From the NCBI GenBank assembly GCA_030019365.1, contig JASEFA010000001.1:586953-650952 (forward strand): DNA of 64,000 nucleotides, given 5' to 3'. The notes under the pieces are model-generated. The model was not told the DNA's origin and did not search any database. It was given only the letters and a program-made list of their open reading frames with translations. Shown piece after piece: positions 31,171 to 37,530 of this stretch. Each line of letters starts with the position of its first letter. The first letter of the stretch is position 1. This DNA is from Bacillota bacterium (lineage in GTDB: Bacteria > Bacillota > Sulfobacillia > JACIYH01). Both the position numbers and the translations under genes were made by a program.

Positions 31171-32562
31171 CTATTCGTCTTGTCGGGCCTCGACCACGCC
31201 CTCGGGACAGGGCGTGGTCCCACCCGGCACCAGCACCCGCGTCAGCTCCCCCCAGGCCTCGTCGGCGCCGGCACCGGTGACGCGCACCCCTACCAGGCAA
31301 CCTTCCAGGCCCGGCCCGCCCGGAAAGCGAACCCGCACGTAGTTCCGCGTGAGGCCCGACACAAAGCCCTCCTGCTCCCGCTCCGCCAGCACCTCCACCA
31401 CCCGGCCCACCAGTCCCAGCGCGAAAGACCGGGCCAGGCCAGCGCCCACCTCCCGCAAGATGCGGGCCCTCTCCTCCTTTACCTTCTCGGGCACCCGCTC
31501 CGGCATCTGGGCGGCCGCCGTTCCCGGGCGGGGAGAGTACGGGAACACGTGCAGGCGCATGAAGGCGACCTTCTCCACCACCCGCACCGTGGCCGCGAAG
31601 TCATCGTCCGTCTCGCCCGGAAACCCCACCATCACGTCCGTAGACAGGGCCAGCTCCGGCACCTTCTCCCGCGCCCTTCGTACCAGGTCCAGGTACCATG
31701 CCGCCGAGTAGGAACGTCCCATGGCCGCGAGCACCCGGTCTGACCCGCTTTGCAGGGGCAGGTGCAGGTGGGGGCAGATGACCGGGTAAGCGGCCATGGC
31801 ACCGAGGAAGCGGCCGGTGACGTCCACCGGTTCCAGGGAGCTCACCCGCAGCCTCCTCAGCCCCTCGATCGCCGCCATCTCTTCCACCAGCCAGGCCAGA
31901 CCATCAACCATACCCAGGTCGCGACCGTAGGCACCCAGCTGGATGCCGGTGAGGACGATCTCGTGGAAGCCGGCCGTCACCAGGCGGTGGGCTTCCCGCA
32001 GGGCAGCCTGAGGGTCCCGGCTGCAGGCCGGCCCCCGGGCCGCGGGTACGGCGCAGTATGTACAGCGCATGTCACACCCTTCCTGCACCTTGAGGACCGC
32101 CCGCGTCCGGCCCTGCGCCTCCACCGGTATCTCCTCGTATCCGTCCCGGCTTCCGTGCGCCTCCTCCGCCAGGGGTCTCACCTCGACCAGTTTCCTTTCT
32201 CCCCGCAGGGCCCGTTCCACCAGAGAGACGATCTCACCCCGCCCCCGCGTTCCCACCACCACGTCGGCCCCGGTGGCGGTCAGGGCCTCCGCCCCGCTCA
32301 CCTGGGGATAGCACCCGCATACCACCACCACGGCGTCCGGGTTGCGGCGGCGGGCCTGCCGCACCGCCTGGCGGGACTGGGCCTCACTACGCGCCGTCAC
32401 CGTGCAGGTATTGACCACGTACACGTCGGCAGGTTGCCGGTAATCCACCACCTCCCAGCCTGCCCGCCGGAACAGCCCGGCCATGGCCTCGGTGTCATAC
32501 CGGTTCACCTTACAACCCAGGGTGTAGAAAGCTACCTTGTTGCGCGGCCGCGCCCCTGTCAA
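31171..32562 (-). CDS. mtaB: tRNA (N6-threonylcarbamoyladenosine37-C2)-methylthiotransferase MtaB
   Basis: 463 residues of the radical-SAM methylthiotransferase family (B. subtilis YqeV). The N-terminal domain has [14 protein letters not shown] with its first cluster Cys, and further Cys in NTCTV and CGCYP; the radical-SAM motif is [12 protein letters not shown] (CxxxCxxC). A C-terminal TRAM domain ends the protein. The enzyme adds a methylthio group to t6A37 of tRNAs reading ANN codons and uses two [4Fe-4S] clusters. The TTG at 32562 overlaps the rsmE stop, so the genes are coupled. Order dnaJ-rsmE-mtaB is as in Bacillus, except that prmA is missing. Confidence 0.94.
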
Positions 32563-33407
32563 GACGGCGCGCCCCTTCCTTCTCCGGCACGGGCGCGGCC
32601 CAGTTCGCCCCTCGACGCCAGCACCAGGGTGAGGGCGGCCAGCGTCGCCGTCTCCGAGCGCAGGATGCGGGTGCCGAGGCTGACCGACCTGCCCCCCAGC
32701 GCCCGCACCCGGGCCACCTCCTCACGGGTGAGACCTCCTTCGGGTCCCATTACCAGTATGATTTCCCTTTCCGCGCCCGCCAGGAGCTCGGACAGACCCA
32801 CCCCGCGCTCTTCTTCCCACAGGACTATCAGCAGGGCTCGCGGCAGCAGTCCCCGGGCACACTCCAGGGCGGTCGCCAGTTCCTGGGGAGGGAAGATGGC
32901 AGGCACCCGGGTGCGCAGGGACTGCTCGGCGGCCTCGCGGGCGATCTTCTCCCACCGCTCCAGCCTCCCCGGTGACCCGGAGGGACGCACCACCGTGCGG
33001 GCGGTTACCACAGGAAGGATGTAGCTGACCCCCAGTTCGGTGGCCTTCTGCACCACCAGGTCCGTGCGGTCTCCCTTGAGCAGGGCCTGCAGTACGGCGA
33101 CGGTTACCGCGGGCTCGGCGAACCGGTTCACCGGTCCCATCACCCGGCCCCGGCTCCCAACGGGGCTCACTTCCTCCAGCCTCACCGCCAGTTCCTGTCC
33201 TTCCACCACCACCCCCACAACCTGGCCCCGGGCCAGCCGGAGGATACGCGCCAGCTGCCGGGAGACCTCGGGCGGGAACAGCACCTCGTCCGCGTGGATG
33301 GCCCTGGCCTCCAGGGCGAAGCGCGCCCGCGGGGACAAGGCCACCCGCCCGGCAAATCTGGAGCCTCCGCGGCCCTCCGCACCGGCGGGGGCGCTCAACT
33401 GTTCCAC
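32559..33407 (-). CDS. rsmE: 16S rRNA m3U1498 methyltransferase RsmE
   Basis: 282 residues, SPOUT-class methyltransferase. The family signature at the knot is [13 protein letters not shown] followed by [12 protein letters not shown] near the C-terminus. RsmE methylates N3 of U1498 in 16S rRNA using S-adenosylmethionine. The GTG at 33407 overlaps the end of dnaJ. The first ~35 residues are longer than usual and Gly/Arg-rich, so a later start cannot be excluded. Confidence 0.94.
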
Positions 33408-34504
33408 GCCTCCTTCACCCGGCCCCAGAGCCCTTTGTCCTTCCCCTTCACACCCTCGCCGCGCATGGCGGCAAGTTCACGCAACAGCTCTTTCTCCCGC
33501 GGACTCAGACCGGTGGGCGTGCGCACGTCCAGATGCACGTGCAGGTCTCCCCTTCCCGCCCCACGCAGGCGGGGCATGCCCAGGCCGCGCAGGCGGACCA
33601 CCGCGCCGGGCTGAGTGCCCTCCAGAACCTTCGCCTGCGCGGAGCCATCGAGGGTGGGGACATCGAGGACGGCGCCCAGAGCAGCCTGGATGAAACTGAT
33701 GGCCACCTCGCAATGGAGGTCATCGCCCTCCCGGCGGAAGAGGCGATGCGGCCGCACGTGGATGTCCACGTAAAGGTCGCCCGGCGGGCCACCCCGGGTC
33801 CCCGGCTCCCCCTCTTCCGGCAGGCGCAGCCGCAGGCCGCTGTCCGCTCCCGCCGGTACCTTCACCGTGATGTGACGCACCCGCCTGACCCGGCCCAGCC
33901 CCCCGCAATCGGGACAGGGGTCGGTCACCACCGTCCCCTCCCCTCCGCAGGCCGGGCAGGTACGGACCGAGACAAAGCGGCCGAAGAGGCTGTCCGATAC
34001 CGTCTCCACCTGCCCGGTGCCCCGGCAGCGGGAGCACGTCACCGGAGGGCTGCCCGGCCGGGCACCCGTCCCATCGCAAATGGGACAGCGTTCCACCCGG
34101 GGCACTTCCAGCTCCCTTTCCACCCCCGCAAAGGCCTCTTCCAGAGCGATGTCCAGGTCCAGGCGCAGGTCCGCACCCCGCTTGGGCTCCCGCGCTCGTG
34201 CCCCCCGCGGTCGCCCCGTTCCGAAGAACATGTCGAAGAGATCCTGGATGCCCGCGAAGGGGCTGCCCGCGTCACCGGGAGCACCGGCGTCACCGTAAGC
34301 ATCGTAGCGGGCGCGCTTCTCCGGGTCGGAAAGGACCGCGTATGCTTCGTTTATCTCCTTGAACTTCTCCTCGGCGCCGGGATCGCCGGGATTGGCATCC
34401 GGGTGGTACCGGCGGGCCAGCCGGCGGAAGGCCTTCTTGATTTCGTCCAGGCTGGCCTCCCGGTTCACGCCGAGGATCTGGTAGTAGTCCCGCTTGTCGG
34501 GCAA
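33395..34504 (-). CDS. dnaJ: chaperone protein DnaJ
   Basis: 369 residues of a full type I DnaJ. The J domain (1-70) has HPD at 34-36; a short Gly/Phe region follows; the zinc region carries all four CxxCxGxG motifs ([32 protein letters not shown]); the rest is the substrate-binding domain. DnaJ normally stimulates DnaK ATPase and delivers unfolded clients. The TTG at 34504 has AGGGAGG eight bases upstream. Unusually, no full dnaK or grpE precedes it: the gene upstream encodes only a DnaK subdomain and the one before that an archaeal-type chaperonin. An intact HPD implies a full DnaK exists elsewhere in the genome. Confidence 0.96.
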
Positions 34505-34507
34505 CGG

Positions 34508-34789
34508 CTAGTCCTCCCTGGGTCCCTCTCCCATCATGAGTTCCAGAAACTGGTGTTGGGTGATGACCACATCCAGGTGAAGGGGCCCTTCGCTGCCCCT
34601 CACCAGAAAGGGAAGCGAGACGTTGTACGCGGCCGAGCGCGCCAGCTGGCGACGAGCCTGTCTCGCCGCCCGCAGGACCTTCTCCCAGGCCACCGGATCG
34701 TGGCTCGGGTCCACCCCGGTGCGTTCCCGGAACACGGTGGTCAGGTAATGAGCCAGCTTGAGCACCACAGGGTCATCGCCGGCTTCCAC
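34508..34789 (-). CDS. stand-alone DnaK nucleotide-binding-domain subdomain IIB-like protein (mini-DnaK)
   Basis: 93 residues that align end to end with one piece of DnaK. GDDPVVLKLAHYLTTVF matches the GGxDFDxRLxxYLxxEF start of subdomain IIB, RAARQARRQLA matches its long helix (EAAEKAKIELS), and VSLPFLVRGSEGPLHLDV matches the VNLPYITxDxxGPKH segment; the match ends near FLELM, where IIB ends. Walker-like phosphate loops, the linker and the substrate domain of Hsp70 are absent, so it cannot be an ATPase. In DnaK, IIB is the lobe that GrpE grips. It has its own GTG start with GGAG upstream, a four-base gap to dnaJ and a 15-base gap from the chaperonin gene, and no frameshift or stop, so it looks expressed. 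It may be a relic or an adaptor; I favour a retained function because the frame is intact. Confidence 0.8.
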   Translation of the reverse strand: MEAGDDPVVLKLAHYLTTVFRERTGVDPSHDPVAWEKVLRAARQARRQLARSAAYNVSLPFLVRGSEGPLHLDVVITQHQFLELMMGEGPRED

Positions 34790-34804
34790 AACCCACCACT
34801 CCAG

Positions 34805-36400
34805 TCAGAAGTCCATCTCGCCCTCGGGGGAACCGCCCGACTCTTCACCGCCGGGCTGGGCGGATCCTCCCTCATCCTTCTTCTTTATGATGGTATCGAT
34901 GCGCAGGATAGCTTCGGCGATCTCTCCCGCCGCCCGCAGGGCGTAAGTCTTTACGGGGGTGGGGTCCACCACCCCCACCTCCAGCATGTCCACCACTTCG
35001 CCGGCGTCGCAGTCGATGGCCAGCGAGTCAGAGATCCGTTCCACCTGAGCAGCCATCACGTCGCCCACCTTCTCCAGGGGGTTGAAGCCGGCGTTGGCCA
35101 CGATCTGGGATAGCGGCTTCTTGAGGGCCTCGGCCACACAGTCCACGCCGTAGGCCGCCATCCCCCGCACGCTGGAGCGCACCTTCTCGACTTCCCGGGA
35201 GACCGCCAGTTCGATGGCCCCGCCTCCGGGAACCACCCCGCCCCGCACCGCCGCCTGCACGGCGGACGTGGCGTCCTTGGCGATACGCTCCCGCTCGCCC
35301 ACCACTTCCTGGGTGGCCGCGCCCACCAGGATGGTGGCCATGGGCTTACCCTTACCACCCAGGACACGCACGTGCTCGAGTTTCTCGTCCTCGAAAGCCC
35401 GGTCGGCCGCACCCAGGTACTTCTCCAGTTCCGGCGGATCCTTGCGCAGGGCGGTGCGCTTGACGGCCCGGGCCCCGGCGTGCTCGGCCACCTGCCGCAG
35501 CTCCCGGGAAGAAACCCGCTGCAGGACCATCACCCCGGCGTCGGTGAGCATCTCTTCCGCCGCCTCATCCACGCCCCGATCCACCACCACCAGGTTGACG
35601 CCCAGGGAAATGAGCTTGCGCACATTGGCCCGGAACTCTTCCTGGAGCTGGAGGTAGCGCCCGAAACCGGCTTCCGTCCCCAGGGCCTCCTCCTCGATCT
35701 CTTCGGGCTCGAGGGCGTCGTCCACCACCAGCACCCGGACAGGGGCCACTTCCTCGGGCATCTCCCTGTTGGTACGCTGTTTGTCCACGATCACGCCCAT
35801 GAACACTTCGTTTTCGGCCCCGGCCCTGGCCACCACCGTGTCGGAGAGCTTGAAGGAACGATCGAGGAGCTTTTCTCTGCCCACCAGCGAGGCCGCCTTC
35901 ACCGCCAGATCGGCAATATCCTCCTGCTCCCGGCCGGAGACATACGCCACCCGCCGCAGGATGGGATCGTCCACCCCGTTGACCGGGCGGGACCGGGTCT
36001 CCACCTCTTCGATGGCCTTGCGGATGCCCAGCCTTACCCCCTCGATGATGCGCGTCACCGGTACCCCCCTCACCGCCTGGTTCACCCCCTCGGTGAGCAG
36101 GGCTCCGGCCATGATGGTGGCGGTGGTGGTCCCATCGCCCACTTCCTGCTCCTGGGCGCGGGCCACGTTGATGACCATCCGGGCGGCGGGGTGATTGACG
36201 TCCATCTTGGTGAGGATGGTGACGCCGTCGTTGGTGATGGTCACGTCTCCGAACCGGTCAACCAGCAGTGTATTGAGGCCCTTAGGACCGATGGTGCCTT
36301 CCACCGCGGAGGCAATTGCGCGGACCGCGTTGGCATTGGTCAGTAGGGCCGCCAGCTTTTCGTCGATCTCGGCACCGGACGCCACCTGCTTGAGCGCCAT
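34805..36400 (-). CDS. group III (archaeal-type, thermosome-like) chaperonin
   Basis: 531 residues of the thermosome/CCT fold rather than GroEL. The ATP site motifs are GPKG (38-41), NDG (57-59) and GDGTTTATIMAGALL (from 88); VVPGGGAIELAVSREVE is near residue 390. The C-terminal tail is Gly/Ser/Glu-rich and lacks the GGM repeat of GroEL. Group III chaperonins are known in some Bacillota such as Carboxydothermus; they carry a built-in lid and need no GroES, and refold proteins in a closed double ring. The ATG at 36400 has GGGAGG eight bases upstream. It follows hrcA by 59 bases under a CIRCE-bearing promoter, so it is expected to be heat-inducible. No groES/groEL is in the window. Confidence 0.93.
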   Translation of the reverse strand: MALKQVASGAEIDEKLAALLTNANAVRAIASAVEGTIGPKGLNTLLVDRFGDVTITNDGVTILTKMDVNHPAARMVINVARAQEQEVGDGTTTATIMAGALLTEGVNQAVRGVPVTRIIEGVRLGIRKAIEEVETRSRPVNGVDDPILRRVAYVSGREQEDIADLAVKAASLVGREKLLDRSFKLSDTVVARAGAENEVFMGVIVDKQRTNREMPEEVAPVRVLVVDDALEPEEIEEEALGTEAGFGRYLQLQEEFRANVRKLISLGVNLVVVDRGVDEAAEEMLTDAGVMVLQRVSSRELRQVAEHAGARAVKRTALRKDPPELEKYLGAADRAFEDEKLEHVRVLGGKGKPMATILVGAATQEVVGERERIAKDATSAVQAAVRGGVVPGGGAIELAVSREVEKVRSSVRGMAAYGVDCVAEALKKPLSQIVANAGFNPLEKVGDVMAAQVERISDSLAIDCDAGEVVDMLEVGVVDPTPVKTYALRAAGEIAEAILRIDTIIKKKDEGGSAQPGGEESGGSPEGEMDF

Positions 36401-36459: not shown

Positions 36460-37494
36460 TTACACCAGGGCCCACCTCCCCAGCAGATCGGTGAGCAGTT
36501 GCTCGAACTCCGCCACCGCGCCCACCGCCCGGCCGTAATCCATGCGCTTGGGTCCGATCACCGCCAGGCGCCCCAGAGACATGCCGGCCCGGTAAGGCGC
36601 CAGCACCAGACTCAGGTCGCGGACTTCGCCCAGAGGATTCTCCTCGCCGATGCTGACCAGCACCCGCGACTCCGCCCGTTCGCCTCCGGCTACGAGCAGG
36701 TACTTGACCAGGACTTCCTGCTCGAGGACGGAGATCACCGCCCGCAGCCGCTGGCGGTCGTGGAACTCGGGCTGGCCGAGCAACGCCCCCAGGCCCACCA
36801 GGTACATGCGCTCACCGGAGTGCTCGCCCGCCGAGGCCACCAGGATCTCCAGCACCTGCTCGAGAACCTGCCGGTACCGCGCCAGCTCCGCCTCCAGTTC
36901 CCGCAGGACGCTCTGGGAGAGCGCCTGCACTGCCAGACCGCGCAGCGCCCGCGTGAGCACCTGGGCGACATACTCCAGCTCCGCCCGGGTGAGGTCCACC
37001 GGCACTTCCACCATCCCGGACTCCAGGAGCCCCAGGTCAGCAACGGCCACCAGCAGAGCCCGCCCCGGTCCGACCGGCACCAGGTCCAGGCTCCGGAACA
37101 CCATCTGACCGGCGTGGGGGCCCATCAGGATGGCCAGAGAGCTGGTGGCCTCGCTGAGCAGGCCGGCCACCTGGTGCAGTACTGCCTCCATGGCGCGGGT
37201 GCGCCCCTCGCACAGGTCGCGGACGCGCACCACCACGGACGCGGGCAGGGGCTTCACCTCCATCAGCTCGTCAACGTAGAAGCGGTACCCCCGGTCGGAC
37301 GGGATGCGCCCCGCCGAGGCATGGGGCTGCTCCACGTATCCCAACTCTTCCAGATCCGCCATCTCGTTGCGGATGGTGGCCGCGCTCACCCCCAGCCCGT
37401 ACTTGCGAGCGATGGTGCGCGATCCCACCGGCTCGGCCGTGGCCACGTAGTCCTCCACTATGGCCTGCAGTATCCTGCGCTTGCGCTCGTCCAC
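36460..37494 (-). CDS. hrcA: heat-inducible transcription repressor HrcA
   Basis: 344 residues. The N-terminal winged helix (1-75) contains ERKRRILQAIVEDYVATAEP and GVSAATIRNEMADLEELGY; the remainder is the GAF-like HrcA core. HrcA binds CIRCE and represses heat-shock operons, and its folding by a chaperonin (GroEL in Bacillus) keeps it active. Here the chaperonin in the same operon is of group III, so that one may be its folding sensor. The GTG at 37494 is preceded by AAGGTGA. It is the first gene of the operon and is autoregulated through the CIRCE just upstream. Confidence 0.96.
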   Translation of the reverse strand: MDERKRRILQAIVEDYVATAEPVGSRTIARKYGLGVSAATIRNEMADLEELGYVEQPHASAGRIPSDRGYRFYVDELMEVKPLPASVVVRVRDLCEGRTRAMEAVLHQVAGLLSEATSSLAILMGPHAGQMVFRSLDLVPVGPGRALLVAVADLGLLESGMVEVPVDLTRAELEYVAQVLTRALRGLAVQALSQSVLRELEAELARYRQVLEQVLEILVASAGEHSGERMYLVGLGALLGQPEFHDRQRLRAVISVLEQEVLVKYLLVAGGERAESRVLVSIGEENPLGEVRDLSLVLAPYRAGMSLGRLAVIGPKRMDYGRAVGAVAEFEQLLTDLLGRWALV

Positions 37495-37503
37495 CGTCTC
37501 ACC

Positions 37504-37530
37504 TTAGCACTCCATACAGGCGAGTGCTAA
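37504..37530. promoter_or_regulatory. CIRCE element (HrcA operator)
   Basis: TTAGCACTC, a 9-base spacer and GAGTGCTAA form a perfect copy of the CIRCE inverted repeat, 9 bases before the hrcA start and directly downstream of its -10. HrcA binding here would repress hrcA, the chaperonin, the mini-DnaK and dnaJ. Confidence 0.98.

Follow-up and report, generated by a model that had tools for sequence, protein, structure and literature searches.

The window, i.e., the whole stretch of 64,000 nucleotides of a Bacillota genome that was analyzed here, carries on its minus strand an operon composed of hrcA, the group III chaperonin gene cpn3, a very short gene that we call mini-DnaK (or "mini"), dnaJ, and then an rsmE-type and an mtaB-type gene (Table 1). 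A CIRCE operator located 9 nt upstream of hrcA places this operon in the HrcA/CIRCE regulon. Only 0.01 CIRCE elements with up to three mismatches would be expected by chance, and an exact CIRCE also precedes hrcA in most of the related group III chaperonin loci that we fetched. The chaperonin is about 54–75% identical to those of bacterial loci outside the genus, compared to 30–36% for archaeal thermosomes. Its likely start is the ATG at 36400, and the frame is also open from a GTG at 36475.

Table 1. Positions of the genes and signals of the mini-DnaK operon within the window.
Feature	Position	Strand	Evidence
CIRCE operator (HrcA-binding inverted repeat)	37504..37530	.	perfect 9-9-9, 0 mismatches
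hrcA (heat-shock repressor), heading the operon	36460..37494	-	Pfam HrcA, E=3e-51
cpn3, group III (archaeal-type) chaperonin	34805..36400	-	Pfam Cpn60_TCP1, E=6e-111
GGAG ribosome-binding site of the mini gene	34799..34802	-	9 nt before GTG; read from sequence
mini-DnaK gene, 93-aa free-standing Hsp70 subdomain IIB	34508..34789	-	ORF; Pfam HSP70; AF2 and Foldseek; dN/dS
dnaJ	33395..34504	-	Pfam DnaJ, DnaJ_C, DnaJ_CXXCXGXG; NCBIfam TIGR02349 above cut-off
rsmE-type rRNA methyltransferase, downstream	32559..33407	-	Pfam Methyltrans_RNA
mtaB/miaB-type methylthiotransferase, downstream	31171..32562	-	Pfam UPF0004 and Radical_SAM

The mini open reading frame runs from a GTG start at 34789 to a TAG stop at 34508–34510. 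A preliminary description of this locus had regarded its frame, start codon, ribosome-binding site, and spacing to dnaJ as intact, and all of them hold: the gap of 15 nt between the TGA of cpn3 and the GTG contains the GGAG motif followed by 9 nt, and only 3 nt separate the TAG from the TTG start of dnaJ. The GC content at the three codon positions (0.74/0.41/0.79) is in line with that of the neighboring genes. A gene in antisense or in another frame was considered and dropped, because the 526-aa plus-strand open reading frame that overlaps the mini gave no match in a Pfam search.

The only Pfam match of the mini residues is HSP70 (PF00012; E=9.5e-8, above the curated cut-off), which aligns residues 11–85 to positions 229–302 of the 599-position profile, and NCBIfam DnaK models cover the same stretch. 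The homology to Hsp70 extends to the wider family, with PF00012 matching 11 of the 12 aligned mini members. Searching PDB chains with phmmer likewise led to DnaK (7e-10, with residues 233–305 of the E. coli protein aligned), and an HMM of DnaK subdomain IIB scored the mini at 48.9 bits compared to 7.4 bits for the best of 2000 shuffles of its residues, which rules out a chance resemblance. No other part of the nucleotide-binding domain is present, i.e., the phosphate loops are missing, and the open reading frame ends where IIB ends, without a substrate-binding domain, just as had been noted before. The AlphaFold model of the window mini (pLDDT 85, pTM 0.75) has the element order of IIB, helix-helix-strand-strand-helix, and Foldseek superimposed it on the IIB of many DnaK structures with 0.7–0.9 Å over 79 columns. 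The most divergent mini (L134), which had been outside the first alignment, is predicted to adopt the same fold (pLDDT 85.7); both models were built on alignments of the mini family itself, and the predicted IIB fold is thus retained among minis that share only 25–41% identity. Pfam, phmmer, HMM, and fold all agree, and we regard it as confirmed that positions 34508–34789 hold a conserved gene for DnaK subdomain IIB only, located between a chaperonin and dnaJ.

The same small gene occurs beside group III chaperonins elsewhere, as the preliminary description had proposed to check. A search of 154 genomes of the class, which like the other genomes compared here are mostly metagenome assemblies, found a short-frame IIB gene in at least 13 genomes from seven family groups. 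All 13 of these minis lie directly downstream of cpn3, usually with dnaJ coming next, and in several families the start of the mini overlaps or abuts the cpn3 stop (e.g., TGATG). In one genome (G045, L115), dnaJ is found 1.4 kb away from the mini and cpn3 is still adjacent. The chaperonin gene itself is present in 44 of the 154 genomes, and none of the matches listed in the 110 genomes lacking it is a mini. This co-occurrence has P=2e-8 if genomes are taken as independent, a value that is overstated since they share ancestry and since the mini descends from a cpn3 operon. Across the phylum (398 genomes), the window mini was the only short-frame match among the best matches listed. Many cpn3 genomes have no mini and join cpn3 directly to dnaJ, including L155, a close relative of the carriers L045 and L159.

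Within the genus, sibling species carry the mini at 84% and 76% identity, and a pairwise codon model gave dN/dS values of 0.087, 0.099, and 0.125 with likelihood ratios against neutrality of 42–52. These values are far from 1 and resemble those of the downstream rsmE and mtaB genes (0.08–0.13), with hrcA, cpn3, and dnaJ at 0.02–0.05. Purifying selection clearly acts on the mini, which is a genuine gene and not a pseudogene.

Which parts of IIB have been kept was read from the residues (E. coli DnaK numbering, i.e., window residue plus 224 according to an ungapped match to 1DKG). The adenine-contacting residues E267, K270, and S274 (PMC2940730) are largely gone, being kept in 2, 0, and 0 of the 13 minis, respectively. 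On the cleft face, Q260 and R261 are found in no mini and E264 in a single one (the window mini has an arginine there); F285 is kept in seven minis and replaced by cysteine in six. In Mycobacterium tuberculosis, the counterparts of E264 and Y/F285 are E236 and Y257, and a double mutant of these two residues showed them to be needed for the binding of GrpE and for mycobacterial growth (PMC10803776). R261, E264, and E267 also map to a modeled ClpB contact in F. novicida (PMC7182274), where the shift of -2 to E. coli numbering is our own conversion except for two pairs given in that paper. With E267, K270, and S274 as well as Q260, R261, and E264 replaced, the mini has, judging from its sequence, lost the side of IIB that contacts the nucleotide and much of the side that contacts GrpE and ClpB. 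Residues of the beta-hairpin and of the alpha8-alpha9 loop are preserved: A258, P284, and H295 are found in all 13 minis and G249, D251, D255, P293, and L296 in 12 each. Other features lie outside what is the rule in DnaK, namely D297 and V281 (12/13 each) and a tryptophan or phenylalanine at 259 and an arginine at 275 (9/13 each). Several of the retained residues may be purely structural. The open reading frame had also been said to start with the GGxDFD motif, but this opening of IIB in DnaK (GG[DE]DFD) is not conserved: D233 is found in none of the 13 minis, which begin just past the motif.

Another fragment of Hsp70 is present in the window genome, in the form of a 224-bp block that covers just the IIB of a second dnaK (G000:C10:8827-9050, equivalent to L048:5028-5251, minus strand). 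It shares 92% identity with the IIB-coding segment of the second full-length dnaK in the sibling genome G002 (L200:3866-4089), has unrelated flanks, and lies inside a truncated larE-like open reading frame (AKYGRLKSILSSISGAVVAFSGGVDST). This block keeps E267, K270, and S274, and a stand-alone copy is absent from the siblings. We rejected it as a paralogous mini, since it matches a piece of a sibling's second dnaK and lies within what looks like a broken larE gene, and it looks like recombination debris or an assembly chimera. The mini is unlike this block in how well it is conserved, in its residues, and in its genomic setting. The existence of such a IIB-sized piece in the same genome weakens the earlier argument that random decay would seldom spare precisely one subdomain, and it is conservation rather than neat boundaries that sets the mini apart from gene debris. 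The same C10 region also holds a dispersed short repeat of about 60 bp (L048:4743-4805, query 1296-1358) that is found at several sites in three sibling genomes with 83–90% identity.

Related operons come in three states, cpn3-grpE-dnaK-dnaJ, cpn3-mini-dnaJ, and cpn3-dnaJ without anything in between (the direct state). Among 57 named bacterial cpn3 loci, 27 have grpE-dnaK-dnaJ after the chaperonin gene (e.g., Desulforamulus, Desulfofundulus, Desulforudis, Ammonifex, and Aneurinibacillus), nine have a mini, 17 have dnaJ alone, and four reach the end of the contig. In every genome with a mini or in the direct state that we examined, a full-length dnaK lies at another site, in most cases next to hspR: the two genes adjoin in 16 of the 18 such genomes whose dnaK region was fetched (L049, L198-L217), with grpE following dnaK wherever the contig reaches. 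The order dnaK-grpE is also seen in G074 and G054, where hspR was not detected. The window genome itself has a separate hspR-dnaK-grpE-dnaJ operon with a long Clp-like open reading frame (L049, G000:C7). In three genomes of the class with dnaK in the HrcA operon (G013, G020, and G036), that gene is the only dnaK match. Two further arrangements were observed on the side. In one family (f36; L097 of G149, L101 of G150, L135, and L137), cpn3 and dnaJ lie about 0.9 kb apart, and the interval is occupied by a larger and different open reading frame of about 290–320 codons in place of the mini. The 96%-complete genome G014 encodes a group III chaperonin that is divergent (49% identity; G014:C45:5608-7170); the mini/DnaK IIB profile found no match there at E<=1e-5, and DnaK is possibly missing from this genome or highly diverged.

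These three states, together with the full-length dnaK genes that mostly lie beside hspR, suggest that the mini is probably the remnant of an HrcA-operon dnaK that was displaced by an HspR-type dnaK. The source of its IIB would be an ancestral hrcA-cpn3-grpE-dnaK-dnaJ operon. An hspR-dnaK-grpE operon elsewhere in the genome would have taken over general Hsp70 work, and grpE and the remainder of dnaK would then have been lost from the HrcA operon, with IIB alone being retained in some lineages. In line with such an origin, 11 of the 13 minis score nearer to HrcA-operon than to HspR-operon DnaK, a small tendency (mean difference about 4 bits) that is to be read as a lean rather than as proof. 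In a IIB tree with 90 columns and long branches, the minis group to one side of a branch that lacks firm support (8/68), and the three operon states are scattered over a cpn3 tree; both trees would be compatible with one gain and many losses or with repeated reduction.

With regard to function, we tentatively propose, at slightly less than even chances, that the mini is a free IIB from the HrcA-operon DnaK that serves the group III chaperonin made alongside it as a small docking protein, i.e., as a co-chaperone or adaptor. Among the possible partners, this chaperonin is the strongest candidate because the mini was found only together with cpn3 and directly after it, as would be expected of such a co-chaperone, and because papers on group III chaperonins already suspect a DnaK partner from the operon (PMC5635000, PMC5220055). 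The docking function is what we infer from gene position, and the history of displacement is likewise inferred. The mini would dock via its beta-hairpin (LP..GP.HLD), its alpha8-alpha9 loop (G.DLR.D..A), W/F259, R275, and D297, and would perhaps keep substrates, DnaJ, or the resident DnaK close to the apical domains of the chaperonin. Its position after cpn3 may reflect inheritance from the ancestral operon rather than function, and the group III chaperonin does not need the mini, as the many cpn3 operons without one, e.g., L155, make clear. More generally, a single Hsp70 subdomain that no longer binds nucleotide might serve as a dedicated co-chaperone or docking module that preserves a former contact between DnaK and the chaperonin, an idea to which we would give somewhat less than an even chance.

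The preliminary description had named a decoy for GrpE first among several possible roles. As such a decoy or regulator, a free IIB would bind GrpE and thereby slow or buffer nucleotide exchange on full-length DnaK during heat shock. IIB is indeed the part of Hsp70 that is touched by all nucleotide exchange factors (PMC2940730, PMC4753570), carriers of the mini encode a full-length DnaK as well as, if the contig extends far enough, GrpE, and the beta-hairpin is kept. However, the replacement of the cleft-face residues E264, Q260, and R261 and the cysteine that often takes the place of F285 disfavor this explanation as first choice and, together with the loss of the adenine contacts, point instead to a protein that would assist the group III chaperonin independently of nucleotide. 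Moreover, subdomains IB and IA, which form the GrpE interface together with IIB, are missing from the mini, and its gene adjoins cpn3 and not grpE, so that we consider a GrpE decoy improbable. It also appears unlikely, though less so, that the target of the mini is DnaJ, HrcA, or the resident DnaK rather than the chaperonin, e.g., with the mini as a regulator of the HrcA heat-shock switch or of J-domain delivery. The mini shares its operon, which is headed by CIRCE and hrcA, with dnaJ, and dnaJ follows after 3 nt in the window and at a short distance in most carriers. J-domains, however, bind subdomain IIA and the linker of DnaK and not IIB, operons in the direct state have hrcA and dnaJ without any mini, and in G045 cpn3 is still next to the mini whereas dnaJ is not.

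Two explanations would do without a function of the protein. The mini could be a spacer whose product does little and whose frame is retained for translational coupling between cpn3 and dnaJ, as the stop/start overlaps with cpn3 and the very short gap to dnaJ in several loci might suggest. This seems very unlikely to us, because selection acts on the amino acids and not on the frame alone (dN/dS about 0.1), because the fold persists despite low identity, and because operons in the direct state join cpn3 and dnaJ without a spacer. A neutral relic of a deleted dnaK, which the preliminary description had also considered, would explain why the mini occupies the grpE-dnaK site of relatives and is absent from many lineages. 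It has hardly any chance of being correct: purifying selection is strong, the mini is present in at least seven families, its fold is conserved, and its substitutions follow a coherent pattern. The dN/dS test within the genus refutes it, and the actual relic in the window genome, the C10 block, looks different from the mini. Altogether, the preliminary interpretation stands with regard to a free-standing and selected IIB tied to a chaperonin gene, and none of the outcomes that it had named as refuting it, i.e., missing conservation, a dN/dS close to 1, or a fold other than IIB, was observed. The GrpE decoy is not supported as its leading idea, and its argument from decay is weak.

Gene order has led earlier authors to ask whether and how Hsp70 hands clients over to group III chaperonins. 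A naturally occurring fragment of Hsp70, about 90 residues long, that lacks the nucleotide contacts and is encoded beside the chaperonin makes this question directly testable, and binding of the mini to the chaperonin would reveal which surface of Hsp70 touches it. The mini would further exemplify a single Hsp70 subdomain as a selected gene of its own and would clearly illustrate how a chaperone operon, once displaced, can leave one functional module behind. A search of open-access texts found no description of a IIB-only gene, and an earlier mention elsewhere is possible.

Compared to known systems, the mini is like the IIB of DnaK/Hsp70 in fold and sequence (about 26–32% identity in structural alignments) but lacks subdomains IA, IB, and IIA, the phosphate loops, and the substrate domain and has E267, K270, and S274 replaced. 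Stch/HSPA13 is a shortened Hsp70 that consists only of the nucleotide-binding domain and thus, like the mini, a piece of Hsp70 made as a separate protein, but it keeps this whole domain, whereas the mini is one subdomain without the nucleotide residues. Docking of an Hsp70 nucleotide-binding domain on a group II chaperonin has reportedly been described by Cuellar and colleagues in 2008 (as cited in PMC5635000) for the complex of CCT with Hsc70, which sets a precedent for such contacts but, unlike the mini, is eukaryotic and involves the whole domain. Group III chaperonins in a bacterial Hsp70 operon of the Carboxydothermus type have reportedly been described by Techtmann and Robb in 2010 (as cited in PMC5635000). 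That operon has the same kind of chaperonin and the same frame from hrcA to dnaJ as the window, but it has dnaK and, in the accessible parts of the papers describing it, goes without mention of a IIB-only gene (PMC5635000, PMC5220055), whereas the operon in the window has lost grpE as well as all of dnaK except a single subdomain.
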